DNA from: Rubripirellula sp.
GTDB taxonomy: Bacteria; Planctomycetota; Planctomycetia; Pirellulales; Pirellulaceae
DNA: 35,505 nucleotides
Reading direction: 5' to 3'
Assembly: GCA_012270065.1 (NCBI GenBank)
Contig: JAAXJB010000008.1
Coordinates: 19,105-54,609, forward strand
The notes under the pieces were generated by a model, which saw nothing but the letters and a program-made list of their open reading frames with translations, was not told the origin of the DNA and ran no database searches. Made by a program: the position numbers and the translations under genes. Every line of letters starts with the position of its first letter. Position 1 is the stretch's first letter. Shown here one piece after another: positions 6,837 to 22,376 of the stretch.

Positions 6837-7123
6837 CTTTGCAGATGACAACGTCAATCTGCAAACTCACGGGTGAAGATGCTCACTCAACCAGCGTTGA
6901 AGTAACCTGACTCAGGTTTGCGTTAGTGAACATCATGAAGGATAATCACATGAGTGATTCAGTTGCCCGGGGAATCAGAACATTGACTGATCGAATCTGA
7001 ACAGGCAACTACCGACAGTTATCCTGGCGAATGTGGTTTCAGCAAGGTAGTGAACCACCCAGTATCGCCGGAATTCCGCTCGTGACGTCGGTTCTTGACT
7101 CCCATACCAAGCAGAGATTTACG

Positions 7124-8569
7124 ATGCGAAAAATGAAAACGATGGCCCGGCGAGTACTGCGTTTGATCGCTGTGGCAGGTTTTCTTGTTTGTTTGAATGG
7201 TCAACCAGTCACCGCTGCGGTGCCCCACATCGTATTGGTGATGGCGGACGATCAGGGGTGGGGGCAAACGGGCTATTACAACCATCCTCGTTTGAAGACC
7301 CCGCATCTCGATGCGATGGCTGAATCAGGACTCCGGTTTGATCGCTTTTACGCTGGGGCTCCGGTTTGCTCGCCTACCCGCGCGAGTGTTTTGACAGGTA
7401 GAGCGAATGATAGGACAGGAGTCCTTAGTCACGGTTACGCTTTACGACGACAGGAAATCACGCTTCCACAAATACTTGCCGGTGCCGGATATCGAACAGG
7501 TCACTTTGGCAAATGGCATCTCAACGGAATACGCGGACCTGGTGTGCCAATCCTCAAGAGCGATGATCACAATCCTGGGGAGTTTGGTTTTGGGACGTGG
7601 CTATCGGTTACAAATTTTTTTGACCGGGATCCGCTTCTCAGTCGTGTTGGGCAATTTGAAGAGTTCGCAGGAGATTCGTCCGAGGTGGTTGTGGATCAGG
7701 CACTTGAGTTTATCAAGCAGAACGCAACGCAGGCCCCGACGTTCACCGTGATCTGGTACGGCACGCCTCACAGTCCCTTCAAGGCAGCAGAGGGAGACAT
7801 GGTCGATTTCACTGGGATGGATCCCAATTCCCGCAACCACTACGGCGAGCTTGTGGCGATGGATCGCAGTATCGGCGATTTGAGAAATGGCCTGCGCCAG
7901 CTTGGTATTGCGGACCAAACCCTGCTCTGGTTCTGTAGTGACAACGGTGGATTGCCAAAAATCAAGCCTGATACAGTGGGTGGTCTTCGCGGCAATAAAG
8001 GAACAATTTATGAAGGTGGTTTACGCGTACCGGCAATCATTGAATGGCCAGAAAAAATCAAACCGGCGCGCATCACATCTCACCCGGCAAGTGTTCTCGA
8101 CATTCTGCCGACAATTCTTGAAATCACGGGAACAACGTATCCTGCTCCCCAACGGCCGCTTGATGGGACAAGTCTGGTGCCACTGTTGCAGCGTGAAATT
8201 GGCAAACGGAAAAAACCCATTCCATTCCGGCACATTGGGCGTGCGGCATTGATCGACAACGATATGAAATTGCTGACCAATGCCATGCAAAAGGGAACGT
8301 TCGAATTGTATGACTTGGCCAATGATCCCAGTGAAACAACGGACATTTCTGGTGATCATCCGGAGATCTTTGCTCGGTTGAAGAAAGAAATGCTGACTTG
8401 GAGTAGCACTGTTGATAATAGTGTTGCAGGGAAAGATTATCCAAGTGGAATGGTTGATGAAGATGAGCCCGAACCCCGTTTTTGGACAGACATCGAAGCG
8501 TATCAACCATATTTCGACGACTGGAAAAACCGCTGGGAATATTCCTCACGACTGAAGAAACGGCGATAG
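7124..8569 (+). CDS. Secreted formylglycine-dependent sulfatase
   Basis: A 481-aa type I sulfatase, hydrolysing sulfate esters outside the cytoplasm. A signal peptide is present (positive MRKMKTMARRVLR, hydrophobic LIAVAGFLVCL, cleavage near AA 31-32). The calcium-binding DD pair lies in MADDQGWG (about D42, D43). The catalytic motif is CSPTR with C82, converted to formylglycine in this family. GKWHL (129-133) and SDNGG (D273, N274) supply further active-site residues. I chose ATG 7124 because the signal peptide then begins directly; ATG 7142 is possible, and the frame upstream of 7124 is not protein-like. The C-terminal half has the usual DLANDPSETTDIS turn. The sulfated substrate cannot be told from sequence alone. 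Confidence 0.9.
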   Translation: MRKMKTMARRVLRLIAVAGFLVCLNGQPVTAAVPHIVLVMADDQGWGQTGYYNHPRLKTPHLDAMAESGLRFDRFYAGAPVCSPTRASVLTGRANDRTGVLSHGYALRRQEITLPQILAGAGYRTGHFGKWHLNGIRGPGVPILKSDDHNPGEFGFGTWLSVTNFFDRDPLLSRVGQFEEFAGDSSEVVVDQALEFIKQNATQAPTFTVIWYGTPHSPFKAAEGDMVDFTGMDPNSRNHYGELVAMDRSIGDLRNGLRQLGIADQTLLWFCSDNGGLPKIKPDTVGGLRGNKGTIYEGGLRVPAIIEWPEKIKPARITSHPASVLDILPTILEITGTTYPAPQRPLDGTSLVPLLQREIGKRKKPIPFRHIGRAALIDNDMKLLTNAMQKGTFELYDLANDPSETTDISGDHPEIFARLKKEMLTWSSTVDNSVAGKDYPSGMVDEDEPEPRFWTDIEAYQPYFDDWKNRWEYSSRLKKRR

Positions 8570-8841: not shown

Positions 8842-10416
8842 TCATTTCTGTTTTGCCTGCCGGTTGGGCTTTTGACGTTTCGCGCGACCTGGGTCATCAT
8901 CGGGCCCAACGGCATACTGTCTGCGTAGACGTTCCAGTTCAGATGCCATGTATTTTTGGACTTCTGCGTACGCCGGGTCTCCATACACGCTTCTCAATTC
9001 GTTTGGATCCTGCTTCAAATCAAATAATTCCCAGTCATCGATCTTTTTTCCTTCCAGTGCATAGAAGTGGATCAACTTGTGTTGGCCATTGGTGACACCG
9101 TAATGGCGAGCCACATTGTGACCTCCTGGATTTTCGTAGTACTGGTAGTAAAAGGATGTCCGCCAGTCATCCGGTGTTCGACCCTCAAGGATTGGCACAA
9201 GGCTTTTTCCCTGCATGTCGTCCGGGATCTCGACGCCTGCCACGTCGAGGAAGGTTTCAGGGAAGTCCAGATTGGAGACAATGTCATTGTTGATCGAGCC
9301 TGCCTTCACGTGTCCCGGCCAGCGGATCAGCAGTGGAGTTTTCAGTGACTCCTCGTACATCCACCGTTTGTCAAACCAGCCATGTTCACCGAGGTACCAT
9401 CCTTGATCGGATGAGTAAATCACAATGGTGTTGTCGGTCAGGCCTGCTGAGTCGAGATAATCAAGCACTTGCCCAACACCGTCGTCAACACTTTTGACAC
9501 ATCGAAGATAATCTTTTGCATAGCGTTGATACTTCCACTGCAGAATTTCTTTTTCTGTCATGTTTGGCTTGGCCTTTTCGAACGCTTCATTTTTTGGTCC
9601 GTAGGCAGCATCCCAGACTTGGATCTGTTCTGGAGTCATTGTGCCATGCCCCTGGAGTTTCAGATCCCGTGGATTCAGGTGTTGCCGCATTGTCATGGTC
9701 TGGCGACCAGCGGACTGTGTGCGACCTGAATAGTCATCGTACATCGTTTCCGGTTCGGGAAGAGTGACGTCATCGAGCCAGTTGAGATATTTGGGAGCAG
9801 GCATCCAGTTACGGTGCGGTGCTTTGTGTTGATACATCACCATGAATGGTCTTTCGGGATCACGTTGTTCTTTCATCCAGGCAAGTAACTTGTCAGTGAT
9901 GATTTCTGTCGTGTAGCCGGTATGTTGCCGGGTGACAGGTTCCCCATTTTCTCCCGCCGTGATCATGGGAGGATTGTAGTAAGGACCTTGTCCCTTCAGC
10001 ACGTCGTAATAGTCATATCCCTGGGGTGTCGACGCGAGATGCCATTTTCCAACGACCGCAGTCTGGTAACCCGCCTTTTGCAGAAGTTTCGGGAAGGTCT
10101 GTTGGTCACCATCGAATCGATTGCCATTGCGAATGAAGCCATTGAGATGGCTGTACTTTCCAGTCTGGATTACCGCACGACTTGGTCCACAAATCGAGTT
10201 GGTGACATAGCAGCGGTTGAATCTCATGCCCTCGTTGGCAATTCGATCCAGATTGGGAGTGGTGATGCGCGAAGGATCGTAGGCGCTCAAAGCCTGTTCA
10301 CAATGATCATCCGTGAAGATAAACACGATGTTCGGCGCTTGGTCGGCTGCATTGGAAACCGAGGGAAGCCCGAAGAGGATCGAAAGTGCTGACAGGGTGA
10401 TCATCAATCGCTGCAT
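8842..10416 (-). CDS. Secreted formylglycine-dependent sulfatase (second)
   Basis: A 524-aa type I sulfatase with a signal peptide ([16 protein letters not shown], cleavage near NAA 22-24). TDDH (about residues 35-38) supplies the metal-binding DD pair, and CGPSR with C76 is the formylglycine site. GKWHL follows, and [16 protein letters not shown] is the later metal-binding segment, with DQ in place of the DN seen in the other sulfatase. That combination resembles the N-sulfoglucosamine sulfohydrolase/iduronate-type branch more than the arylsulfatase A branch. The C-terminus is an Arg/Lys/Gln-rich tail (about 25 residues). The long frame reaches back to 10548, but the signal peptide sets the start at ATG 10416. 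It converges on the first sulfatase and is divergent from the DUF1080-like gene. Confidence 0.9.
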
Positions 10417-10472
10417 GCTTTTTGACCTGGTGAGAGAGGCGGTTGCCCTGAGAGGACAAGGCAGGGCGGGTG

Positions 10473-10486
10473 GCTTGAATTCAAGC
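10473..10486. promoter_or_regulatory. Perfect 14-bp palindrome in a divergent promoter region
   Basis: gcttgaattcaagc is a perfect palindrome in the 261-base gap between the divergent sulfatase and DUF1080-like genes. A direct repeat gtgttgaact also occurs nearby (10611-10620 and 10630-10639). Either could be an operator; there is no independent support. Confidence 0.4.
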
Positions 10487-10677
10487 TTGGGGTGAACATT
10501 TCCCATGATAGCCGGAATATTCGGCTCTGCTTGCACGGAGGATAGCATATTTTATGCTCCAAACACGCGCAGTGCGGATTTCCATGTCATCGGCTTGTGG
10601 CACTCCGCGAGTGTTGAACTACAGTATGGGTGTTGAACTCCCCATTCTGATTTTTCCCTCACCAGCCCCCTGCTACC

Positions 10678-11934
10678 ATGCCAAAACTGTCAATTCTGAT
10701 CGCCAGCACCATTTTTGCGTTCTTCTGCAACTCTGATTTCGTGGTCGCAGATAATGGCAAAGGACCTGCGTTCACTGAGCCTCCTCAAGGAGATCCGGAC
10801 TTTGCTCTGATGGGTGAGTTTCTCGGCGAGATCACGCCTTCGGAAGGTCAGAAAGAACAGCTCGGTCTGCAGTTGCGGGCACTCGGCGATGGTTCCTTTG
10901 ATGCCCAGTCTTTTCTCGGGGGACTGCCCGGCCAAGACAAACACAAGCCTGAAGCGTTTCGAATGATCGGACAACGCTCTGATGACTTTGTGATTCTGTC
11001 AGGCGGTCCCTATGTCATGATCGTAGAAAAAGATCATTGCATTCTTGTCGACCGAAAAGGAAACAAGATTGGTAAACTCAACCGGTTGCACCGCAAAAGT
11101 CCGAGTCTGGGAGCTTTGCCACCTGAGGGGGCAATTGTCCTGTTTGATGGTAAGAATGTTGATCAATTTACCAATGCTCAAATGACCAAGGATGGATTGC
11201 TGATGCAGGGAGCGGATTTGAAACCGCTGTTTCAGGATTTCAATCTGCACGTCGAATTTCAAATTCCATACATGCCAAAGGCTGAGGGACAAAGTCGAGG
11301 TAATAGCGGGCTGTATCTGCAAAGTCGTTACGAGTGTCAGGTACTCGATTCATTTGCACTCGATCGGCTTTACAATGGGTTGGGTTCCCTTTACCGGTTT
11401 AAAAAACCGGATGTGAACATGGCGTTTCCACCCCTGACGTGGCAAACCTACGATGTTCAATTCACCGCACCGCGTTGGGCGGCAGATGGATCCAAAGTAC
11501 GCAATGCCCGACTCACATCCTGGATCAACGGTGTAAAAGTCCAGGACGACGTTGAATTACCAAACAAGACTGGCGCTGGAAAACCAGAGGAACCAGTCAT
11601 GTTGCCTATCCGTCTGCAGGATCATGGTGATCCGGTGCGTTTCAGAAATATCTGGCTGGTGGACCGCGGTTTGGCGAAGGGTGAATTTCCCGTTTACCCA
11701 ACCAAGCAGCAGCTTGAAGCAGAAGCAGCCAGAAAAGCAAAGCTAGCAGCCGAGAAGAAGGCAGCCGAGAAGAAGGCAGCCGAGCAGAAGGCAGCCGAGA
11801 AGAAGGCAGCAGAGCAGAAGGCAGCAGAGAAGAAGGCAGCAGAGCAGAAAGCAGCCGAGCAGAAAGCAGCCGAGCAGAAAGCTGCTGACGAAAAAGCGGC
11901 CACTGATCAGTCTGCTGGAGAAGCAAAAAAGTGA
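10678..11934 (+). CDS. Secreted DUF1080-like protein with a repetitive Ala/Glu/Lys tail
   Basis: A 418-aa protein with a signal peptide (SILIASTIFAFFC, cleavage near VVA 22-24). Residues 25-145 form an N-terminal domain I do not recognise. Residues about 150-345 are DUF1080-like (IVLFDGKNVDQF, FNLHVEFQIPYMP, GNSGLYLQSRYECQVLDS, PIRLQDHGDPVRFRNIWL), a concanavalin-like fold associated with glycoside or keto-glycoside binding or cleavage. Residues about 350-418 are a charged tail of nine AAEKK/AAEQK pentapeptides plus a degenerate tenth, predicted as a single long helix. It is divergent from the sulfatase at 8842-10416 and may act on the same polysaccharide. Confidence 0.88.
   Translation: MPKLSILIASTIFAFFCNSDFVVADNGKGPAFTEPPQGDPDFALMGEFLGEITPSEGQKEQLGLQLRALGDGSFDAQSFLGGLPGQDKHKPEAFRMIGQRSDDFVILSGGPYVMIVEKDHCILVDRKGNKIGKLNRLHRKSPSLGALPPEGAIVLFDGKNVDQFTNAQMTKDGLLMQGADLKPLFQDFNLHVEFQIPYMPKAEGQSRGNSGLYLQSRYECQVLDSFALDRLYNGLGSLYRFKKPDVNMAFPPLTWQTYDVQFTAPRWAADGSKVRNARLTSWINGVKVQDDVELPNKTGAGKPEEPVMLPIRLQDHGDPVRFRNIWLVDRGLAKGEFPVYPTKQQLEAEAARKAKLAAEKKAAEKKAAEQKAAEKKAAEQKAAEKKAAEQKAAEQKAAEQKAADEKAATDQSAGEAKK
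11746..11880 (+). repeat. Nine 15-bp tandem repeats encoding AAE(K/Q)K
   Basis: Nine contiguous 15-bp units of the type gcagccgagaagaag encode AAEKK or AAEQK in the order K,K,Q,K,Q,K,Q,Q,Q at the variable position. A diverged tenth unit (11881-11895, AADEK) follows. Copies are nearly identical at the DNA level, so the array could change length by slippage without shifting the frame. Confidence 0.95.
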
Positions 11935-11970: not shown

Positions 11971-12633
11971 TCAGGAATCTTCTGCTGTTTTTCCGGTTTC
12001 TTCTACCACTTGCCCATCGGTGATATGAAATCGTCGGTCGGCTAACGCGCTCGCTTCGTCTGCGTTGTGTGTGATGTGCAAGGTGGTAACGCCGGTGTTA
12101 TCCGTCAGAGTGCGCAGGAGATTTTGGATCTCTTCGCGTGTTTCGGAGTCCAGTGCACTCAATGGTTCGTCGAGTAGCAGAACAGAAGGGCGAAATGAAA
12201 GTGCGCGGCCAAGAGCCACCCTCTGTGATTCGCCGCCACTGAGTCCTTCAATCTGGCGTTTCAAGAGATGAGTGATTCCAAGCATTTCTGCCAGTTCATT
12301 CACGCGGCGATCGATCTGGTTTCTGTGAAAGCCTCGCAATCGTAGGGCGAATTCCAGATGTTCGCAGACGGAGAATGTTGGAAAGAGAGCAAGGTCTTGC
12401 GGCACATAACCAATTTCCCGATCTGCCGGTGGCCAACTCGTAACGTCCATTCCACGGATGATGATCTTTCCACTTTGGATGCTTCTGAGTCCACAAAGGG
12501 ATTCAAGGATTGTTGTTTTACCACGTCCTGTGCGACCCATCAGAACTGCATATTGGCCGCTACTGATTTCGAAAGAAATGTCCTGCAGCCGAAAATCACC
12601 TGCGCGAATACAGACGTTCTGGAATTCGATCAT
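11971..12633 (-). CDS. modC: ABC transporter ATPase, molybdate/tungstate type (ModC-like)
   Basis: A 220-aa ATP-binding subunit that would energise import by the adjacent permease. It shows Walker A GRTGRGKTT (33-41), Q-loop YVPQD (Q79), signature LSGGESQRVALGRAL (131-145), Walker B VLLLDEP (151-157) and the switch His in ITHN (H189). It lacks the C-terminal MOP/TOBE domain of E. coli ModC, being about 130 residues shorter, so substrate-linked regulation by that domain is absent. The ATG overlaps the permease stop as ATGA (12630-12633). It is the last gene of the probable five-gene operon. The molybdate assignment comes from the permease and binding protein, not from the ATPase itself. Confidence 0.88.
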   Translation of the reverse strand: MIEFQNVCIRAGDFRLQDISFEISSGQYAVLMGRTGRGKTTILESLCGLRSIQSGKIIIRGMDVTSWPPADREIGYVPQDLALFPTFSVCEHLEFALRLRGFHRNQIDRRVNELAEMLGITHLLKRQIEGLSGGESQRVALGRALSFRPSVLLLDEPLSALDSETREEIQNLLRTLTDNTGVTTLHITHNADEASALADRRFHITDGQVVEETGKTAEDS

Positions 12634-13487
12634 GATGTCAGCCCTGTCCCCAGAAATCGCAGTACGACGAGGACGATCACAGCCATGACGACCATCAACA
12701 GTGAGACGGCAACCGCGGCATTCAACTGGCCGATCGACAATTCAAGAAATACGGTGGTTGACAGCACTTCTGTTCTCATGCGCGTTGCTCCGGCGAAAAC
12801 CAGAATTGGCCCAAATTCTCCCAGAGCCCTTGCCCACGCGATGGTGGTGGCTGCGATCATTCCGCGCCATGATTGAGGCAGAGCAATTTGCAGAAATGCC
12901 TGTCCCCGCGTACAGCCGAGCGTCCGTGCGACATCCTCTGCACGTGGGTTGATCTGGTCGAATGTGACTCGCATCGTACGAACAGCGAATGCACACGAAA
13001 CACTGAATTGGGCAAGAATCACAGCAGGCCAACGATAGGTAACGGGGAATCTGACATCGTCACGAAGCCACGCTTCCAGTTCCCAGTTTCCGACAGGAAG
13101 GTGAAAGAGGATCAGAAGACTCAGGCCCAGCACGAGTGGTGGCAGGACGATCGGGATATCCACGATTGTGTCAATCAACAGGCGGCCCGGGAATCGGTAG
13201 CGGGACAGCAGGTATCCCAGCGGAGTTGCAACCCAGATTGATAACAAGGCCGCGATGGTGCACGACAGGATGGTGAGCCTGAATGCTGATTGTATCTCCG
13301 GTTTCATGACGGCAGCCCTGAAGTCCTCAAGCGAGGTGAACATCAGATCTGCTGCGAGTAACAGTACGATCAGCAGGACGAAGCATGAAGAGATACCGCT
13401 CATGACCAGAAAAAAGGGCAGGTCCGAACGTGTCCGTTTCAGTTTTGTCTTTGTTTCAAGTTGTTGCCTGGCATTCGGGTCAGTCAT
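12630..13487 (-). CDS. modB: ABC permease, molybdate/tungstate/sulfate type (ModB-like)
   Basis: A 285-aa inner-membrane permease with about six TM helices. The cytoplasmic EAA loop appears as AEDVARTLGCTRGQAFLQIALP, the contact point with the ATPase. It is followed by GEFGPILVFAGATRMRTEVL, close to the ModB signature (LGEFGATxMFAGNxxGRTQTL). The start is ATG 13487, inside the last codons of the binding-protein gene (8-base overlap). The longer frame back to 13574 runs deeper into that gene and is not credible. Sulfate (CysT/W) and tungstate (WtpB/TupB) permeases are relatives, so molybdate is probable but not proven. Confidence 0.88.
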   Translation of the reverse strand: MTDPNARQQLETKTKLKRTRSDLPFFLVMSGISSCFVLLIVLLLAADLMFTSLEDFRAAVMKPEIQSAFRLTILSCTIAALLSIWVATPLGYLLSRYRFPGRLLIDTIVDIPIVLPPLVLGLSLLILFHLPVGNWELEAWLRDDVRFPVTYRWPAVILAQFSVSCAFAVRTMRVTFDQINPRAEDVARTLGCTRGQAFLQIALPQSWRGMIAATTIAWARALGEFGPILVFAGATRMRTEVLSTTVFLELSIGQLNAAVAVSLLMVVMAVIVLVVLRFLGTGLTS

Positions 13488-14997
13488 TATCGGCGCTGGG
13501 CTCCGTATCGAGTTTCCACCTGAAGCCCTCGGCCATGAAGCTGTCTTGTGAATCGGTCGAGCAGATCTGTGCAAAAAGCCGACTGGCCGTCAGTGCATTG
13601 GGAGAATCGGGTGTGATTGCATAGGGCTGTGTTGCCACACTGCAATCCAGGCCCTGTATTCGGACCGCATCAAGGAAATCGCCAGAACCAGCGGTGTTGC
13701 TGAGATACACCACCGCTGCATCCAGCGAACCTGCACGCATCTGGTTCACAAGCATGTCCCCCGTCGGAGTTTGAACTGTAACGTTCTCCATCACTTCCTG
13801 CTGTACACCACCTTCGCGAAATGTATTTTGAGTGACCCAGCCCATTGCACACTGTTTTTCATGACCAATTCCGACTCGCAGTCCCGGCTTGGTCAAGTCG
13901 CGCAAGCCGGCGATGTTTTTCGGGTTCCCTTTTTTGACAATGATGACCAATTCGTTCTGTGAGACATCGGTGGGTTCCGGAAACAGGTCAGGCACCTGTT
14001 CCATGAATTCCGTGTCGCAGGCAAAATATGCGTCAGGTACCTGACCGGCCTTCATTTGGGCAACCAGGATTCCACAGCCGTTGTAGACCGTGTTTACGCG
14101 GACACCTTCACGTGCTTCGAATTTTTTCACGGTGTCTTCAATCGCTGGCCGGAGCATTGAACCGGCAAACAGATTGAGTTCCGGGACTTCAGACCAGACA
14201 TCTCCTTTTTCCACCTGGAAGCCGTGCTTGGCATAATGGGTCAGGCCTCGGTCACGTGCCGTCACATAGCGGGCAAAATGCAAGGCCGCACTTGGTTGTC
14301 TGGTCTGGCTGGCAACGCCCAACGCAACCAGAGATGTTCCTGCCGAAAACTCGGGAAGTTGAACATATTCAAGATCCGGATAGGTGTGCAGTACTGCGTC
14401 ATAGACGATGGCTGCATCGGCAGCACCAACGAGCAGATCATTTGCCGCTTCTGTGACCGTTGTTCGATAGGCTGTTGTGTTTTTATCAAGCGATTCCCAT
14501 TGTCCAGATTCCGTAAGCATCTGTCTGGTCACTTTGCCAACAGCCGTGGCATCCGGGTTGGCTTGAACCAGCTTTACATCATCACGTAACAGGTCGTCGA
14601 AATTCTGGATGGATTTCGGGTTGCCTTTTTTTACGGCCACGACGACTTCCATCTTGGCGATCGGCAGAATCTCCGACGCCAGTCCCATTTCTCTGGCCAT
14701 GTTCAGATAACTGTCATCGGCAGGCAGGTAGAGATCACCTGTACCTGTCACTTCCAGTTGTGAGAGCAGTGTTTGTGACCCACCGTATTGTATTTCGATC
14801 TCACGGCCAAACTCACGAGTGTAGTCGGCGACGATTTTTTCCATCACGGCACGGTTGCTGGCCGCGCAGAAAAACATCAACGGTTTCGTCTTCGCATTTT
14901 CAGATGATTGGTTGCTGTTTGAGTTGTCCTGCAGCATCCAGATCATCGCGACGAGTACAACGATCGATCCGATCATTGCGATGAGCATTTTGTTCAT
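13480..14997 (-). CDS. Fused tandem-domain periplasmic oxyanion-binding protein (two ModA-like domains)
   Basis: A 505-aa protein with an N-terminal membrane anchor or signal (IAMIGSIVVLVAMIWML, residues 6-22) and two homologous ModA-like domains, about 38-268 and 274-494. The duplication is visible in parallel segments: CAASNRAVMEKIVADY (44-59) with FAGSMLRPAIEDTVKKF (277-293); VVVAVKKGNPKSIQNFDDL (118-136) with LVIIVKKGNPKNIAGLRDL (350-368); ADAAIVY (193-199) with LDAAVVY (425-431). ModA proteins normally have one domain of about 230-260 aa. The absence of a canonical lipobox suggests anchoring by the uncleaved N-terminal helix. It presents substrate to the permease and ATPase encoded next. 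Domain two has three Cys (C308, C327, C383) at or near ligand-binding loops, unlike standard ModA. Confidence 0.88.
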   Translation of the reverse strand: MNKMLIAMIGSIVVLVAMIWMLQDNSNSNQSSENAKTKPLMFFCAASNRAVMEKIVADYTREFGREIEIQYGGSQTLLSQLEVTGTGDLYLPADDSYLNMAREMGLASEILPIAKMEVVVAVKKGNPKSIQNFDDLLRDDVKLVQANPDATAVGKVTRQMLTESGQWESLDKNTTAYRTTVTEAANDLLVGAADAAIVYDAVLHTYPDLEYVQLPEFSAGTSLVALGVASQTRQPSAALHFARYVTARDRGLTHYAKHGFQVEKGDVWSEVPELNLFAGSMLRPAIEDTVKKFEAREGVRVNTVYNGCGILVAQMKAGQVPDAYFACDTEFMEQVPDLFPEPTDVSQNELVIIVKKGNPKNIAGLRDLTKPGLRVGIGHEKQCAMGWVTQNTFREGGVQQEVMENVTVQTPTGDMLVNQMRAGSLDAAVVYLSNTAGSGDFLDAVRIQGLDCSVATQPYAITPDSPNALTASRLFAQICSTDSQDSFMAEGFRWKLDTEPSADND

Positions 14998-15046
14998 GTC
15001 GTATCTGCACTTTCGTCAGTAATGTTTTGGCTCTATTCAGCAGAGT

Positions 15047-16087
15047 TCATTTCCCGGGAGGAATGGTTAGCAATTCCGGTTTTCGATTGAGTCGATCACG
15101 TTCGGTTCGCACCGGTGGTGGGGCATTTCCTTCCCCAAACAATCTGGTGTTCCAGTCAACTGACATCAGCAAGTCAAAGCCGGGGTTCCGTTCCTTGACC
15201 TGACAGGAGCAGGCACCGCTCAAAAATACCGTCAGATCCTTGATGAGTGGAGTGGTCAATACAGAAGCAGGAATGACTTCCAATGCCCGTCCGCGGCCAA
15301 AGACAGGAATGATAAGGTCCTCACCACGCTCAAAAGCTTCTGGCTGTATGCCAGAAAATAAACTGACAAGAAATGATTCTTCCGGATCGTTACGTTCTAT
15401 TTCCAAACGGGTGAATTTCAGTAAAAGTGGAATTTCTGAATGCAGTTCCGATCCCGGTAGCCCAATGCCCTCGGGCAGCGCTATGTTTTTCGTCAACCAG
15501 GAAAAGTTTTCTTCGAGCAAACGCCTCGCTTCCAGGTTGGTTTTCTTGATGCCGGAGGAGCCCTCGCCTGATTCGCCTGCCTTGATGACCAGCCAGATAA
15601 CCGAGTGGCCGGCAAGCAGCCTCTTGCTCAGTTCGCGTCTGGCAGGTGAATTCATGATCCCAATCCTGACAGCATCGGAAAGAGTGCCGTGCCAGCCATT
15701 CACAGTGCGTCCCTTGCCCAAGTTCATTCGAACGACAACATAGGGTTGTCCGCCGGCGGGATCTGCTTGTGTACGAATCGAATCCCACAAAAGCCGGTGT
15801 GCAGGTTCTGGTGTAGACAGATCACACATCGTCAATTTACCACCCTGCTCTTCACCGCGTCCTTTTTGTTCTTCTTGCAGTCTTGTCAGCGATTCCTGTT
15901 GCTGCTGATTCAACGCACCGTGATGGAAAACGATCAGTTCGCAATTGTCCGGTTGCCAACGCTCCAGCGCATACCGGAATACCGGGATGTTACAGGCCAT
16001 CATCTCCACTTGGCCGAGCATCATGATGCCAAACGCAAGCGTGACTTTTGCAACCAGTCTGTTTTGGATGGAGTAGGAGACGCACAT
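15047..16087 (-). CDS. Exported protein of unknown function (CNIPVFRYALERW family)
   Basis: A 346-aa protein starting at ATG 16087, 4 bases after the stop of the PQQ/LamG gene. The 24-residue-longer TTG start at 16111 overlaps that gene and is less likely. An N-terminal hydrophobic segment (about 12-30) leads to MMACN with C32, which could be a weak lipobox. The mature protein begins CNIPVFRYALERWQPD, then IVFHHGAL and a Gln/Glu-rich helix. Later come VVRMNLG, a segment SPARRELSKRLLAGHSVIWL, and near the C-terminus GACSCQVKERNPGFDLL with a CxC pair. I recognise no enzyme family. Position in the operon suggests a periplasmic partner of the PQQ protein and the transporter. Confidence 0.75.
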   Translation of the reverse strand: MCVSYSIQNRLVAKVTLAFGIMMLGQVEMMACNIPVFRYALERWQPDNCELIVFHHGALNQQQQESLTRLQEEQKGRGEEQGGKLTMCDLSTPEPAHRLLWDSIRTQADPAGGQPYVVVRMNLGKGRTVNGWHGTLSDAVRIGIMNSPARRELSKRLLAGHSVIWLVIKAGESGEGSSGIKKTNLEARRLLEENFSWLTKNIALPEGIGLPGSELHSEIPLLLKFTRLEIERNDPEESFLVSLFSGIQPEAFERGEDLIIPVFGRGRALEVIPASVLTTPLIKDLTVFLSGACSCQVKERNPGFDLLMSVDWNTRLFGEGNAPPPVRTERDRLNRKPELLTIPPGK

Positions 16088-16091
16088 CAGA

Positions 16092-19000
16092 TTACTCGGA
16101 CTCACTTCCAAAACAGATCACGGATCCATCGAGGGTTGACAGAAACAGTTTGCCCTCGGCACCCGCCAGTGAGTCCCAGCCGGGTAAGACAGGGAGTTCT
16201 ACTCGATCCTGTATCTTGCCGGTATCGATGTTGACCGAAAGCAGAAGTGCCCCATCGGTGCCATTGAGGACACGGTCCTGTTGTGCCAGCAGCTGCTGTA
16301 CTTCTTCATCCTTTTCGGTGAGTTTCTGGAAGGTCGATTCCTCGTCAATGATGTCCGGTGGACCGGCAATGAACAGTCTGCCACCGGAAAGCAACATGGA
16401 ACGAACATAGATCGGCACATCCTCTGTCCACTTGGGATCGACCAGGCTATTACCAGGTGTGTTCGCGTTCCCACCTTTTTTCTTGCCCGAGTACTGAAAA
16501 GCCATTCCGACTTTTCCCTCGACCAGCTTCGCCCCTTCGACGGTACCATCATTACGATTCAATCCCAGATCACGTGCTGTTCCATCATCAAAGCTGACGG
16601 CAAGTGCCGCGTTGCTCGAAATCTCTGACCCATCCTTGAAACGTTTTGCAATCTGTTCCGCATTGGCTGCCAGAAAATAGAGACGCACTTCGTCGATAAT
16701 GCCGGTGAATTGGGGATTGGTATAATCGCCCACCGCGGAGGCGCCGTCGGTACCAATTTCCATGGGTTGCAGAGGATCAGTGCTGATCAGCGCAGTTGCT
16801 TTGCCGGTGCCAGACAGTTCTCCATCAACGTAGATCTTCATCGTCTTGTCATTCTCGAGGACTCCCACCACATGGTGCCAGCCTCCGATGATTCTCTGCT
16901 TGGCGGTCACGGTGGCCAGCTTGTCGCTTGACCGGATATGAAATGCGGGGCGACCGTTTTTCAGTGACAAAGCGAATCCATCCGCAGGTCCACCACGGGC
17001 GATGATTACACCCTGGGGGCGAGTGGAAGTGACCCACGCTTCGACCGTGATGGGTTTGTCAGCCGGGTTGAGACTGGCAGATTTCTGAAATTGAGTGAAC
17101 GTCCCTGTGGGACCGGCTTTCTTCTTTCCAAAATCTTTTGGAATCTCGGGTGGATTTGGCTCTGCAGCAAAAAGTTGGTGCTCCAAAGTGGTTGTCCATC
17201 GCAAATACTCGGGTTTGCGGCCATAGCCAAAGACATAACCATTTCCATTGACGAGCAAACGTCCTGAAGGTGCAAAACGTCCCGCCTGATAGTAGCCACC
17301 ATGACCTCCGGCAAAACTCTGGCCGAGCACCCAGTAAGAGCGATGGAACCACGTTTCATCGAGGAAACCCATGGGTGCGAAAATGTGGGCATCCTCGCCC
17401 CGTTGTTTCGATGCCTGAGTGGCAAAATCACCGGAGTTGGGACCTATTTCCAGACGATTTCCCTCCATGTCGAACTTCTGGGACTTCATGAAAATGTGTT
17501 TGCCATCGGTGGACAGAATGTCGGGTAGTCCAACTGGCATTTGCAGTACCTGCAACTTTTCCTGAATGTTGTTGCCAGTCTCCGGATTTTTCTCGTCCAT
17601 CAGGGTTTCGGAGAGTTTTTTGCCGGTTGCCAGATCGAGACGCAACAGCCGCAGCCCGCCATCAAGGAAGATCGAGCGACCCGCAACGCAATGGACAATG
17701 TTGTTATGAATCAGGACGCTGCCATGAACTGGCCACAGGGATTCAAGTTGTTCAAAGGCCATGGTTCGGCGATCCATGGGAGCAGCCCGGTACCGCCACG
17801 CCAATTCACCCTCCGTGGACAGGCAATAAACCCAACCATCCGCGCCCCCAAAAACAACACGCCCGCGGTGAATGGTTGGTGGGGAGTCAATCCGTGCGCC
17901 GATGGTGTAGGTCCAACGCTCTGTGCCGTCTTCGTGATTCAGCGCCACCAGCGTGTGTTCATCGATTTGTGCTACGTAGACAGTTCCGTCAGCGATGACG
18001 GGTGCAGTCAGGCGACCGCCGAGATTGGCCGTCCATTTGGTTTTCACTTCACCACTGACTGGTTCTCCCATGGTTCCACTGCGATTCGCATCATGACGGT
18101 AAGTGGGCCAGTCTTTGGCTGCCTGAGTTTCATCCGCGTCCGTCAGTGGTTTTTGAAGCGCCGAGCCGACTTCAAGTCTTCCTTTTTCAGGAACCGTGGT
18201 CGGTATGGGGCGAGTTGCCGAAGGTGCAGCAAGGGCATTGAAACCGAACAATTTGGCCTCCGGATAACAGGCACAGTTATGCGGGGGAGCATAAGTCAAT
18301 CCGTTGCAGGGCATCACGCCATAAAGGCAACCACCTCTGACCCAGTGATGGATATCCCAATGTTCACTGTCAGGATCGACAAACTCAATTCCTGTGCGGG
18401 ACGGCATGAGAAAATTATCAGTTGCTTTGGCGATGTAACAGCGATGATGAAACCAATAGGTTTCGACATCCGGAGCAAATTCCTTTTCAACTTTTCCAGT
18501 ACGGGGATTCCGTCCTGTGTAGACCCCCGAGTCCCGTCCCGACGTCAGCGGTGCCAACCAGACCAACCCATTGACGACCATCAAGTCCTGAGGCGACTGA
18601 TAGCCACTGTTGGGAAAGCTGGAACCCCAGAGTTTCTCGCCACTCTTGGAATCAAAGCTGGATAGATTTCCATCACCGCCGGCATACAGCACGACATCTT
18701 CATGCAAAACCAATCGTGGCCCAAAGTTGAATGTGAATGACTGGCGTCTGGTCAGTGGTTCTGTTTGCCAGGCTGTCTCACCACTTTTCTGGTCGACAGC
18801 GACCAACCGTTCACCGTCATGGAAGTAAAGTTGAGAATCCTTGGCAGCCAGAGTCAGAGGTGAAATCCGTGTCTTGCGAGCCCAAAGTCTTTTCCCGGAT
18901 TCAGCATCGAAAGCCATCACGACACGGGGTTCTTCATTCCAGAAAAGGGAGCGAACCTTCGCCTGATCACCGACTCGCCCGTTGAGTGGAACATAGTTCT

Positions 19001-19982
19001 GGAGTTCGGCTTCGCCTTTGCGGACCACCAAAAACAGCATCCCATTTGTATGGATGATTTCTTCGGTTGCGTCACTTCCAGCGTATTCGCGAAGTGTCTT
19101 TCCATTCGCAGCGTCGATGGCTGTCACCGGTGCGTTGTAACCAAGGGTTGTGAATACAGTGTCTTCGGATGACACGAGTCGCCGTGACAATTGTGTGGGG
19201 CCACTCTTGAGCGGCCACAGGTGGGTTTGCCAGTTTTCTATGTCTCGCTTCCACAGTACCGATCCGTTGAATGCATCGCGGGCGATCAGCTTCCATTTAG
19301 GTGGCAACTGGATCGAGATACGGCTGCCTTCATCCATGATGTAAAACATCCGCCCGCCCGTTGATACCAGAGCACTCATACTCGCCATCCGGTCATGGTG
19401 CCGTGACCATCGTGGACTGCCGACCCATTGGAGGTGTCGGGGAGGTGCAACCTGATCATCATGTGCAACCGAATTCCCTGTCGCATCGTGAAGGTAATGC
19501 GACCACTCATCAATATCTTCTGGACGCGGCTTTACCGTCTTTTCCCATTTGTCACCTGACTTGATCATGGCGACGCCTCTGGGGACAAGAACACGAAGGA
19601 CTTCGTGCAGTGGAACGTTCCCAAGATCCTCGGTAATGAACAGATTGACCAGATTGTCCGTGTAGGGCAGTGTTTCACCAGAGAAATTCTCAAATGCAAT
19701 GTTGCCATACTGGCCCGCTTCGCGAACGCTTTCGCGAAGTGTTGCAAGTCGCCCTGGCTCACGGACCAGGCCCTGAATCTGTGTCGCTTCTGACTGCCGA
19801 AGCGCTGTGGCCAGCTCGCTGGACTGACTACCGAGTTCCACCACGAAACCACCCGTGAATCCTGATTCCTTCAGCAGTAAGTCCGCCAGTTCTGGTGATG
19901 CTGCATTCAGATTTGCCAACTGCTTCAGAAAGCAGAACAGGACAAACAGAACGGCGGTTGGGGCAAGTCGTGGGGTCTTCAT
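16092..19982 (-). CDS. Secreted methyltransferase-like / PQQ-propeller / LamG protein
   Basis: A 1296-aa exported protein. Signal peptide about 1-27 (LAPTAVLFVLFCFL). Residues about 30-145 resemble a degenerate class I methyltransferase (GGFVVELGSQSSELATAL, then VNLFITEDLGNVPLHEVLRV). A linker DEWSHYLHDATGNSVAHDD is followed by PQQ-type propeller blades (DAFNGSVLWKRD, DAESGKRLWARK, DQKSGETAWQ, DSKSGEKLWG). A second propeller starts near WPTYRHDANRSGT with HEDGTERWTYTIG. About residues 955-1160 are LamG/concanavalin-like (ITVEAWV, MKIYVDGELSGTGK, FTGIIDEVRLYF), inserted before the last propeller blades. ATG 19982 is chosen for the signal peptide. It likely binds rather than catalyses, since SAM is not expected outside the cytoplasm. 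First gene of the operon. Confidence 0.85.
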   Translation of the reverse strand: MKTPRLAPTAVLFVLFCFLKQLANLNAASPELADLLLKESGFTGGFVVELGSQSSELATALRQSEATQIQGLVREPGRLATLRESVREAGQYGNIAFENFSGETLPYTDNLVNLFITEDLGNVPLHEVLRVLVPRGVAMIKSGDKWEKTVKPRPEDIDEWSHYLHDATGNSVAHDDQVAPPRHLQWVGSPRWSRHHDRMASMSALVSTGGRMFYIMDEGSRISIQLPPKWKLIARDAFNGSVLWKRDIENWQTHLWPLKSGPTQLSRRLVSSEDTVFTTLGYNAPVTAIDAANGKTLREYAGSDATEEIIHTNGMLFLVVRKGEAELQNYVPLNGRVGDQAKVRSLFWNEEPRVVMAFDAESGKRLWARKTRISPLTLAAKDSQLYFHDGERLVAVDQKSGETAWQTEPLTRRQSFTFNFGPRLVLHEDVVLYAGGDGNLSSFDSKSGEKLWGSSFPNSGYQSPQDLMVVNGLVWLAPLTSGRDSGVYTGRNPRTGKVEKEFAPDVETYWFHHRCYIAKATDNFLMPSRTGIEFVDPDSEHWDIHHWVRGGCLYGVMPCNGLTYAPPHNCACYPEAKLFGFNALAAPSATRPIPTTVPEKGRLEVGSALQKPLTDADETQAAKDWPTYRHDANRSGTMGEPVSGEVKTKWTANLGGRLTAPVIADGTVYVAQIDEHTLVALNHEDGTERWTYTIGARIDSPPTIHRGRVVFGGADGWVYCLSTEGELAWRYRAAPMDRRTMAFEQLESLWPVHGSVLIHNNIVHCVAGRSIFLDGGLRLLRLDLATGKKLSETLMDEKNPETGNNIQEKLQVLQMPVGLPDILSTDGKHIFMKSQKFDMEGNRLEIGPNSGDFATQASKQRGEDAHIFAPMGFLDETWFHRSYWVLGQSFAGGHGGYYQAGRFAPSGRLLVNGNGYVFGYGRKPEYLRWTTTLEHQLFAAEPNPPEIPKDFGKKKAGPTGTFTQFQKSASLNPADKPITVEAWVTSTRPQGVIIARGGPADGFALSLKNGRPAFHIRSSDKLATVTAKQRIIGGWHHVVGVLENDKTMKIYVDGELSGTGKATALISTDPLQPMEIGTDGASAVGDYTNPQFTGIIDEVRLYFLAANAEQIAKRFKDGSEISSNAALAVSFDDGTARDLGLNRNDGTVEGAKLVEGKVGMAFQYSGKKKGGNANTPGNSLVDPKWTEDVPIYVRSMLLSGGRLFIAGPPDIIDEESTFQKLTEKDEEVQQLLAQQDRVLNGTDGALLLSVNIDTGKIQDRVELPVLPGWDSLAGAEGKLFLSTLDGSVICFGSESE

Positions 19983-20388
19983 GAGTGCAGCTCTTTGTCT
20001 GAATTCGCCATCTGCGAGGGTTGGGCCCGCGGCAGTCCGCAGGGAAAAACAATTCCGGGCAAAAATCCGGATCGTCTTGACGCTGCATTGTAACAGGCTT
20101 GCAGATTGCTGCAGTCGCGACGCGCTGGCGAATCTCATGGAAAAGGTCTCTGCTTTCCGTGGCGAGGAGTTTCTCGGGCATGGGGCATTCACGCCATTTG
20201 TGGTCTTTCAACGCCTTGCGGCAGCGAATTCTGGCCTCTCGCGGAGATGTCCATCACTGTTCATCGGGCATGCTGACTCGTTGAAACTGGTCGGGGTGTA
20301 TCGTGTTTGATTTCTGGTAAGCTTGGCGGCTGTTGGCTGTGATGAGACCTCGTTCTACAAAAAATCCACGTTCTGCTTCTGTCTGATT
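19983..20388. other. Divergent intergenic region before the operon and the aldo/keto reductase
   Basis: About 405 bases between two divergent start codons, where the operon and aldo/keto reductase promoters must lie. A minus-strand frame here continues into the PQQ gene out of frame and shows a short protein-like stretch, but it has an in-frame stop after MPDEQ and no credible start. I see no hairpin or repeat I would call. Confidence 0.4.
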
Positions 20389-21324
20389 ATGGAAACCCGA
20401 CCTCTGGCCGATACCGGCCTCAACCTTTCTGCCCTTTCTTTCGGTGCTTCTTCGATAGGGGCCGAGTTTCGTCGAATCGATGTTGGGGAGGCACTACGCT
20501 GCGTGAAGGTGGCGTTGGACAGGGGAATGAACTACATCGACACCGCTGCTTATTACGGGCGGGGCATGAGCGAGGTCATGCTGGGCCAGGTGCTGCCTGA
20601 GATTCCTCGCGATTCTTATACCCTGAGTACCAAACTGGGGCGTTACGCGCCCCAGCATTTTGATTTCAGCGCGAGACGCGTCGCTGAGAGCATTGATATT
20701 TCGCTGGAGCGAATGCGAGTCGACCATCTGGACATTGTTTTCTGTCATGACATTGAATTTGTCGAACTGGATCAGATCGTTAATGAGACGATCCCCGCAC
20801 TCAGGAAAGAAGTGGAAAAGGGCAAGGTGCGTTTCATCGGGATCAGCGGGTATCCCATGAAGATTTTTCTGGAAATGATGGAACGCGCGGAATTGGACGT
20901 GATCCTCACATACAACCATTACACACTTCAGAACGATATGGCTCTGTCTTTGGTAGAACCATGCAGAGAAAAAGGGATTGGGCTGATCAATGCAGCGCCC
21001 TTTTCGGCACGGCTGCTAACCAATGCTGTGTTGCCAGAGTGGCACAAGGCGACACCGGAAGTTCGTGAAGTCGCAGCCAAAGCCGCAAAGTACTGTTCCG
21101 ACCATGGAAGTGACATTGCCAAGTTGGCCTTGCAATATTCTGTTGCCAATTCAGCGTTCGCAAGTTGTGTGACGGGTTCTGCGAATCCTGATCGTGTATC
21201 ACAGTGGTGTGATTGGTTGGAAGAACCTCTGGACGAAAGCCTGGTGGATGGGGTCAAAGAGATCCTCAAACCGATTCACAACTGGGTTTACGTTGAAGGT
21301 CGTCCTGAGAACAACGATGGTTGA
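20389..21324 (+). CDS. Aldo/keto reductase
   Basis: A 311-aa NAD(P)H-dependent oxidoreductase of the aldo/keto reductase TIM-barrel family. The catalytic tetrad is visible: D51 in NYIDTAAYYG, Y56 in the same motif, K82 in LSTKLG and H120 in VFCHD. The barrel end shows GKVRFIGISGYP and later LALQYSVANSAFASCVTGSAN, the cofactor-binding region. The layout with IDTAAYYG and FCHDIEF resembles L-galactose/L-fucose dehydrogenase-type members, which oxidise sugars to lactones, but the substrate is unproven. ATG 20389 fits the family N-terminus; 22 upstream residues in the open frame do not. It precedes a sugar isomerase-like gene by about 240 bases. Confidence 0.9.
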   Translation: METRPLADTGLNLSALSFGASSIGAEFRRIDVGEALRCVKVALDRGMNYIDTAAYYGRGMSEVMLGQVLPEIPRDSYTLSTKLGRYAPQHFDFSARRVAESIDISLERMRVDHLDIVFCHDIEFVELDQIVNETIPALRKEVEKGKVRFIGISGYPMKIFLEMMERAELDVILTYNHYTLQNDMALSLVEPCREKGIGLINAAPFSARLLTNAVLPEWHKATPEVREVAAKAAKYCSDHGSDIAKLALQYSVANSAFASCVTGSANPDRVSQWCDWLEEPLDESLVDGVKEILKPIHNWVYVEGRPENNDG

Positions 21325-21560
21325 TCTCCCAGTCGACCCTTTCAAGGTTTGAGCTTGGCAAGTTCAGGACGCTCAATATTCCGAGGATACCGTTATTGGC
21401 TATCCATTTGAGACAGATCATGTTCATTGACTGCTTGCGAAATGGCTGAACGGATTTGTCCGGTCCAACTTGCATCAGTCACGTTTCCAAAGCACACGAT
21501 GGTCGGCTGTCCAAAATTGAAATCAATCCCATTCACCCCTTAAATCAGACTGGAATTACC

Positions 21561-22376
21561 ATGAAATCATGCATCACGATCAGCCTTGTTGAGGAAGCTC
21601 GTGGCGGTCCCTTTGTGTTATGGGACGGTCTTGAAAAGTCGATCGCTTTTGCAGCCGAACTTGGTTATGACGCTGTGGAAATATTTGCTCCGGGGCCGGA
21701 AGTGATCGATGTCGAAGCGCTTCGTTCCATGCTTGAATCGGCCAATCTCAAGTTGGCTGCGCTGGGGACTGGCGCGGGTTGGGTGAAACATCGTTTACAG
21801 CTTGCTGATCCTGATGCCGAAAAAAGGCAGCAGGCTCAGGCTTTCGTGCGTAGTATCATCGATTGTGCAGGTCAGTTCGGTGCCGCTGCCATCATCGGAT
21901 CGATGCAGGGTCCAAGCGGACAGACGGGTGACACCGAAACCGCCAGAGGATACCTTTGCGAGGCATTGGAAAACGGCGGTGCTCATGCTTCACAATATGG
22001 GGTCCCACTCATTTATGAACCACTGAATCGCTACGAAACACGGCAGTGTTGTACCGTTGAGGATGGGGTCAGCATGCTGGAGTCCTTGTCCACAGATAAT
22101 GTTCGCCTGCTCTGTGATCTGTTCCACATGAATATCGAGGAAGCCGACATTGCCAAAGCCCTGCTGCGGGGAGGAAAATGGGTCGGTCACATCCATTTTG
22201 TTGATAGCAACAGGCGTCCAGTGGGGCTCGGACATATGCAGTACGGCCCAATCATGGATGCGTTGAGGCAGATCAATTATCAGGGTTATCTGTGTGCTGA
22301 GGCCTTCCCCTACCCTGATCCCCATGAGGCAGCACGTCAAACCATGAGAGCTTATCGTTATTGGACCGGTACATGA
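21561..22376 (+). CDS. Sugar isomerase/epimerase-like TIM barrel (xylose isomerase-like)
   Basis: A 271-aa metal-dependent TIM barrel of the xylose isomerase-like superfamily (hydroxypyruvate isomerase, tagatose 3-epimerase, IolE/IolI). Probable metal ligands are E153 in IYEPLNRYE, D186 in LLCDLFHMN, H212 in GHIHFVDSNR and E247 in LCAEAFP. GHIHFVDSNR is typical of the epimerase/isomerase branch. ATG 21561 starts directly at the first strand; the 35 upstream residues of the longer frame are not family-like. Together with the aldo/keto reductase upstream it suggests sugar or sugar-acid catabolism, with no transporter gene adjacent. Confidence 0.88.
   Translation: MKSCITISLVEEARGGPFVLWDGLEKSIAFAAELGYDAVEIFAPGPEVIDVEALRSMLESANLKLAALGTGAGWVKHRLQLADPDAEKRQQAQAFVRSIIDCAGQFGAAAIIGSMQGPSGQTGDTETARGYLCEALENGGAHASQYGVPLIYEPLNRYETRQCCTVEDGVSMLESLSTDNVRLLCDLFHMNIEEADIAKALLRGGKWVGHIHFVDSNRRPVGLGHMQYGPIMDALRQINYQGYLCAEAFPYPDPHEAARQTMRAYRYWTGT

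Follow-up and report, generated by a model that had tools for sequence, protein, structure and literature searches.

A Planctomycetota operon that may serve molybdenum or tungsten acquisition through a tandem ModA-like protein and two exported partners

Why would an importer of the ATP-binding cassette (ABC) type share an operon with a giant protein of PQQ-type and LamG domains and with an exported protein of 346 amino acids (aa)? The question is raised by a stretch of DNA from Rubripirellula sp. (contig JAAXJB010000008.1, positions 19,105 to 54,609), called the window below and 35,505 nucleotides (nt) long in full. All five genes lie on its minus strand between 11971 and 19982, as read directly from the sequence, and the junctions in the order from giant to ModC-like ATPase are a gap of 4 nt, a gap of 49 nt, an overlap of 8 nt, and an overlap of 4 nt, just as a preliminary description of this DNA had them. 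Our answer, held with evenly balanced confidence, is that the module is a molybdenum/tungsten (Mo/W) acquisition unit that stands in for ModABC, with a second binding domain suited to a soft ligand and with two exported partners. The five genes are as follows.

16092-19982, minus strand: the giant, 1296 aa from an ATG; the open frame extends back to a GTG at 20192.
15047-16087, minus strand: the 346-aa protein, exported, of a family without earlier description.
13480-14997, minus strand: the tandem ModA-like binding protein, 505 aa, membrane-anchored, with two domains.
12630-13487, minus strand: the ModB-like permease, with an ATG start; the open frame extends back to a TTG at 13574.
11971-12633, minus strand: the ModC-like ATPase, 220 aa.

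The association of these genes recurs among relatives. Of 392 Planctomycetota genomes, 52 (hereafter carriers) contain a match to the 346-aa protein, and 40 regions were fetched for the 66 match rows of this search. A scan of named genomes gave at least 570 confirmed relatives, the best 80 of which form an 80-locus set that leans to the window's clade and whose records include Verrucomicrobiota. Parts were labeled by their own profiles in both sets and in the window (the GIANT and PQQ2 profiles were built from 4 and 13 sequences), and counts over all loci include two pieces of DNA twice, since L032 is the same DNA as L123 and L035 the same as L145. In the 80-locus set, the giant lies immediately upstream of the 346-aa gene at 44 of the 68 loci with at least 4.2 kb of upstream sequence, and the gene immediately downstream (73 loci with at least 1.7 kb) encodes the tandem protein at 40 and an FtsX-like permease at 8. 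Where both flanks are available (54 loci), all five genes stand in order at 24, the importer genes occur without the giant at 3, FtsX is found at 7, and there are no partners at 6. Among the 40 regions and the window, the full order is seen at 3 of 33 loci with both flanks (the window, L031, and L032) and FtsX adjoins the 346-aa gene at 17. An FtsX-like permease and a LolD-like ATPase accompany the 346-aa family in other lineages. One region, L045, was left unscored in this second set, its 346-aa part being fused: there the 346-aa family forms the C-terminal part of a PQQ giant and the tandem gene follows, a single case in which an assembly or sequencing error is possible. Chance proximity of the five genes was considered and is rejected by the linkage and by the joint presence and absence of the parts.

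This joint presence and absence was followed in 33 hand-picked genomes of the window's class, comprising 12 of the 19 carriers and the 21 non-carriers of that class among the matches listed; the counts treat related genomes as independent. The tandem protein (E ≤ 1.8e-122) occurs in all 12 carriers, together with a match to the methyltransferase region of the giant, and neither occurs in any of the 21 non-carriers. Four of the 12 giant matches are of the window type (<1e-100). Four of the non-carriers encode a single-domain relative of domain 1; four regions were fetched, and in three of them it adjoins ModB. Within one genus (g11), genome G105 has all parts, whereas G087 lacks them all and encodes a strong ordinary ModA. 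Phylum-wide, a full tandem protein is found in 37 of the 52 carriers versus 11 of the 340 other genomes. Ten of those 11 were inspected: in 8 the module includes a 346-aa relative that is diverged, and the regions of the other two reach a contig edge. Of these eight relatives, four were recovered at E < 1e-3 and four were recognized from position, motif, and a weak profile score alone; every one of the 8 has a CxC and, close to its start, a Cys. Stand-alone copies of the 346-aa gene fit the same pattern. Sixteen such copies occur in 15 genomes, and the tandem protein is encoded elsewhere in all 15 (in one genome by two frames). At 3 of 12 fetched tandem loci (L158, L162, and L163), the 1.5-kb flanks hold a second 346-aa copy, next to and divergent from the tandem gene, while the other copy stands alone; moreover, L139 and L113 come from one and the same genome, and L113 has the operon. 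Second copies rather than scattered parts therefore account for no fewer than 4 of the 15 stand-alone cases. For the stand-alone copies without an adjoining giant (L104, L105, L109, L110, L120, and L124), a giant is present elsewhere in the genome in 6 of 6 cases (E < 1e-100), and a giant-domain match was found in 17 of the 18 genomes searched for it. The preliminary description had supposed that the first two proteins act with the importer, and the conserved linkage, the matching presence and absence, and the one fusion of a 346-aa protein to a PQQ giant lend support to this idea. Surface capture of a metal-oxyanion complex by these two proteins, which that description also raised, is a hypothesis.

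What the importer carries is suggested fairly strongly to be molybdate or tungstate. The tandem protein scores over the curated ModA cut-off (NCBIfam TIGR01256), and in its own genome, which is 99.5% complete, it is the single ModA locus, matched as two stretches of one frame; the same genome encodes one MoaA and two molybdopterin oxidoreductases over their cut-offs. A strong ModA (E < 1e-25) is rarer in carriers (5/52) than in the other genomes (152/340), whereas at least two ModA stretches, as a tandem protein would give, occur in 46 of 52 carriers versus 24 of 340 others. Because these counts and those of the full tandem protein across the phylum treat related genomes as independent, their p-values should not be read at face value. 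Twenty-two genomes were checked for the frames in which ModA matches fall: in the 14 Planctomycetota genomes picked for their importer cluster, all matches lie in frames of 491 to 610 aa, and among the 8 others the genome of L136 gave no ModA match. Genes of molybdenum cofactor synthesis are also close by in some relatives, with MoaD and/or MoeB in or next to the module at 15 of the 80 loci (on the opposite strand in four). Two of these MoaD/MoeB pairs belong to the ThiS and ThiF families by Pfam; for two ThiF members the MoeB models score highest, with cut-offs not reached. The MoaD-like proteins scoring above 60 bits all end in GG (21 of 21, 20 of them distinct). Pfam reproduced the domain calls of the preliminary description: the giant carries PQQ_2 and Laminin_G_3, the tandem protein has two stretches of SBP_bac_11, and the permease and ATPase match BPD_transp_1 and ABC_tran, respectively. 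The view in that description that the importer is of an anion type also stood, and can be narrowed to the Mo/W oxyanion kind by the domain calls, the MoaD/MoeB neighbors, the lack of any other ModA in the genome, and the inverse pattern with ordinary ModA.

The tandem protein departs from an ordinary ModA. Its structure model (predicted local distance difference test [pLDDT] score of 91.2) places an N-terminal helix at residues 3 to 24 and two ModA-fold domains in a single 505-aa chain, domain 1 at about residues 37 to 268 and domain 2 at about 269 to 500. The two domains share 27% identity over 160 residues (E = 3e-18), and their profile alignment spans 221 columns; domain 2 is therefore likely to be the product of a duplication. 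In domain 1, Ser74 is conserved in 47 of 47 relatives and position 199 is Tyr, Trp, or Phe. In domain 2, Cys308 and Cys327 are present in all 47, accompanied by Cys383 in 37 (Ser in 9), Met281 in 38, Met385 in 36, His379 in 39, and Tyr431 in 45. A report on Acinetobacter ModA (AbModA) gives Ser39, Ser66, Val150, Val177, and Tyr195 as ligand residues (PMC11734730). By a hand count of the alignment to AbModA, Met281 corresponds to Ser39, Cys308 to Ser66, Met385 to Val150, and Tyr431 to Tyr195. Because Met281, Cys308, and Met385 fall on ligand positions, sulfur residues appear to have been acquired by the oxyanion pocket of domain 2: the Cys pair is found in every relative examined and the others chiefly in the window's branch. 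A further nine tandem proteins, more diverged, retain Cys308 and Cys327 in 9 of 9 and Met at 281 in 8. Some arrangements of the binding protein differ from that of the window: separate single-domain binding proteins lie near the 346-aa, FtsX, and LolD genes at L060, L061, and L069, in place of the tandem protein, and two tandem proteins are encoded at separate sites in the genomes of L084, L107, L108, and L123 and in G137 and G194 (G194 shares DNA with the genome of L123).

The two exported proteins were examined by structure and by family profile. The model of the 346-aa protein (pLDDT of 89.9) contains a thioredoxin-like domain according to Foldseek and VIA, so that a thioredoxin-like fold is indicated by modest matches, and perhaps two such domains are present. 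The top Foldseek ranks are two-domain relatives of protein disulfide isomerase (PDI) (4tve, 6.1e-4; 3idv, 9.3e-4), with template modeling scores of only 0.2 to 0.3, the first domain not having been queried alone. Only Cys32, Cys293, and Cys295 are conserved in the family, that is, a Cys right after the signal peptide and a C-terminal CxC, and the family alignment contains no conserved CxxC. Lipoprotein anchoring through the first of these was considered and rejected, as a lipobox-like sequence precedes the conserved Cys in only 5 of 91 members. No relative of the family was detected among PDB sequences, and in Pfam the window protein matched no family, other members giving scattered weak matches with none in common. 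The Rubripirellula genome also holds two further paralogues (L041 and L049), each adjoining PQQ2-type giants, with no importer gene labeled within the 19-kb region. A diverged branch of the family with a CRYT-type start and a CEC motif (L180, L182-L185, L187, and L188) sits with FtsX, LolD, the tandem protein, ModB, and ModC, and some of these loci add a PQQ giant, MoaD, and MoeB.

From N to C terminus, the giant comprises a signal peptide (recognized by eye), a class I S-adenosylmethionine methyltransferase-like domain, PQQ-type propeller repeats, and a LamG/ConA-like domain. The N-terminal region of the window giant alone matched no Pfam family; of 37 aligned relatives, 28 matched PF08241 with E values no higher than 0.1 (best 1e-7), and the family profile of this region reached solved methyltransferases at a best E of 5.7e-6. 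Four His directly after the methyltransferase-like domain are invariant in the 37 relatives. Methyltransferase activity is doubtful because of the exported location, and we regard this domain as an oddity that is probably not an active enzyme.

We propose that in many Planctomycetota and some Verrucomicrobiota the module stands in for ModABC in the following way. The membrane-tethered tandem protein would feed a ModBC-type importer, with domain 1 retaining a ModA-like oxyanion pocket and domain 2, having arisen by duplication, turned to soft ligands through its two invariant Cys, which in the window's branch are commonly joined by a third Cys, two Met, and a His. The 346-aa thioredoxin-like protein, which carries a CxC and begins in its mature form with a Cys, would most likely assist domain 2 as a redox partner or metal carrier, and the methyltransferase-PQQ-LamG giant would provide a scaffold or act upstream in capture or processing. 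The same exported family is found with an FtsX/LolD-type ABC pair in other lineages. The evidence points only weakly to a soft ligand for domain 2 and to these roles of the exported partners.

Several observations weigh against this proposal. Unlinked homologues in related genomes had been named in the preliminary description as an outcome that would speak against joint action, and this is partly seen: at 9 of the 54 loci with both flanks the giant and the 346-aa gene form a pair without an adjoining tandem gene. Of the 12 giant matches at class level, eight are weak to moderate (1.7e-36 to 1.7e-12), as expected for a PQQ2-type giant, and the genome of L143 has an importer cluster and a 346-aa gene with no giant-domain match. 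No full tandem protein appeared in 15 of the 52 carriers; three of these have the loci with separate single-domain proteins, and many of the genomes are incomplete. With regard to cargo, five carriers do have a strong ModA, three Verrucomicrobiota genomes (L131, L133, and L141) add single ModA matches in frames of 264 to 494 aa, MoaD and MoeB are missing alongside the operon of the window, and no molybdenum cofactor riboswitch was found in six sources at Rfam gathering scores. The argument from a sole ModA covers ModA only, with TupABC and other molybdenum routes lying outside the searches. The transporter subunits fall short of the curated models, the permease scoring 158 bits against the ModB model TIGR02141 (cut-off, 182.6) and 140.2 bits against WtpB (cut-off, 340), and the ATPase 161.6 bits against the ModC model TIGR02142 (cut-off, 285.05) and 220.4 bits against WtpC (cut-off, 440). 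Finally, the nine diverged tandem proteins have Ser or Ala at 383, Leu or Phe at 385, and His379 in only 5, and therefore only the Cys308/Cys327 pair is general in domain 2; these two cysteines could also be structural disulfides.

Other explanations draw on parts of the same evidence. Both binding domains might take plain molybdate or tungstate, with the domain 2 cysteines acting as an affinity-tuning redox switch or disulfide, the thioredoxin-like protein setting its redox state, and the giant serving as a periplasmic scaffold. The ModA fold of both domains, a partner with a thioredoxin-like fold and conserved Cys, and the limited spread of the soft residues beyond the Cys pair would all agree with such a switch, and in AbModA, whose cysteines are 141 and 189, a disulfide is reported to alter affinity (PMC11734730). 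Those two cysteines, however, are located elsewhere, Cys308 aligns with the ligand residue Ser66, and the 346-aa partner lacks a CxxC, so that we think this account possible and yet rather unlikely. If instead domain 2 imported a soft metal or metal complex such as Cu(I), domain 1 would be vestigial or bind another oxyanion, and molybdate would enter by an undetected route. The residues common at the domain 2 site among the 47 relatives (Met281, Cys308, Cys327, Cys383, Met385, and His379) and the CxC of the exported partner are what such a transporter might display. Ser74 of domain 1, invariant in the same relatives, argues against it, as do the MoaD/MoeB linkage, the inverse pattern with ordinary ModA, and the absence of another ModA from the genome; we consider this version improbable.

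It is also conceivable that the giant and the 346-aa protein do something separate in the envelope, shared regulation being the sole reason for their place in the operon. The nine loci where this pair lacks an adjoining tandem gene would be explained in this way, as would the paralogues in the Rubripirellula genome that lie beside PQQ2-type giants with no importer. A separate function is difficult to reconcile with the finding that 33 of 33 class-level genomes have either all three parts or none of them (the giant by domain match), with the tandem protein in all 15 genomes holding stand-alone 346-aa copies and the giant in all 6 where none adjoined, or with a 346-aa family that stays beside the importer even where sequence similarity is almost lost. 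We judge this separation to be a poor prospect, and continue to favor a Mo/W acquisition unit in place of ModABC.

How far this unit resembles known transporters can be judged part by part. It shares with ModABC the ModA fold of both binding domains, a ModB-like permease, a ModC-like ATPase, and, in some relatives, MoaD/MoeB neighbors. It differs in that the binding protein is doubled and membrane-anchored, with an invariant Cys pair in the pocket of domain 2, in that its ModB and ModC fall below the curated cut-offs, and in that two exported partners are present in most genomes checked. ModC typically ends in a C-terminal TOBE/Mop domain; in contrast, Pfam finds no TOBE family in the 220-aa ATPase at E up to 0.1. 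The permease also scores below cut-off against TIGR01581 (190.3 bits), and the TupB model gives 50.3 bits (cut-off, 320). The best scores of the permease and ATPase come from molybdate, tungstate, sulfate, and related families, below the curated cut-off of every model listed. There is fairly good support for the module operating as a Mo/W importer does. Because the hallmarks of a single-domain binding protein, ModB and ModC scores above cut-off, and a TOBE domain are lacking, its identity as ModABC proper is not supported. From WtpABC it is set apart by scores under the WtpB and WtpC cut-offs, the tandem binding protein, and the exported partners. The 346-aa protein has a thioredoxin-like domain, and perhaps two, in common with thioredoxin and PDI proteins, but differs from them in the absence of CxxC, in having a Cys at the mature N terminus and a C-terminal CxC, and in having no detectable sequence relative. 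The FtsX-like permease and LolD-like ATPase found beside the 346-aa family in other lineages recall LolCDE/MacB-type systems and are absent from the operon of the window; at one locus (L051), this pair scored 44.7 bits for LolCE (cut-off, 362.45) and 211.5 bits for LolD (cut-off, 307.75).

According to a 2018 survey, which lists three prokaryotic Mo/W ABC systems (ModABC, WtpABC, and TupABC), molybdenum is used by all sequenced Planctomycetes, and 278 molybdenum-using bacteria lack a known transporter (PMC6147048). No description of the module was found in the literature, judged from titles and the beginnings of abstracts, with subscription journals mostly outside coverage. The Cys pair of domain 2, the thioredoxin-like fold of the 346-aa family, and the methyltransferase-like start of the giant are new here; the last two, and the MoaD/MoeB linkage in some relatives, go beyond the preliminary description. 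We speculate, tentatively and as an unlikely extension, that the module is a fourth prokaryotic Mo/W ABC class, whose Cys-bearing second pocket is supplied with a soft metal, a thiolated metal-oxyanion, or ligand-bound Mo/W by the thioredoxin-like CxC protein working with the methyltransferase-PQQ giant, sometimes driven by FtsX/LolD. If the module is the importer of the carriers, molybdenum uptake in part of a major phylum involves an invariant-Cys pocket and two exported families for which we found no described role. This would provide a concrete candidate function for the 346-aa family and for one group of Planctomycetota PQQ/LamG giants, and an everyday nutrient system of Planctomycetota may work in a way not described before.

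Around the operon, a promoter scan was uninformative (2 sites versus a shuffle mean of 4.8). A sulfatase gene (Sulfatase and SGSH_C; 8842-10548, minus strand) lies beside the operon, an open reading frame next to it at 7031-8569 (plus strand) has weak similarity to that sulfatase, and a protein with a 3-keto-disaccharide hydrolase domain and a long, repetitive C-terminal tail rich in Ala, Lys, Glu, and Gln is encoded at 10678-11934 (plus strand). Upstream of the giant, 20323-22376 (plus strand) holds genes for an aldo/keto reductase and a xylose isomerase-like TIM barrel, with relatives in 11 and 10 other loci, respectively. Beyond the five genes, FtsX/LolD, PQQ2 giants, and MoaD/MoeB, the recurrent neighbors are a gene group including sulfatase-like genes (18 of 121 loci), aldo-keto reductases (12 of 121), and TIM-barrel proteins (11 of 121).

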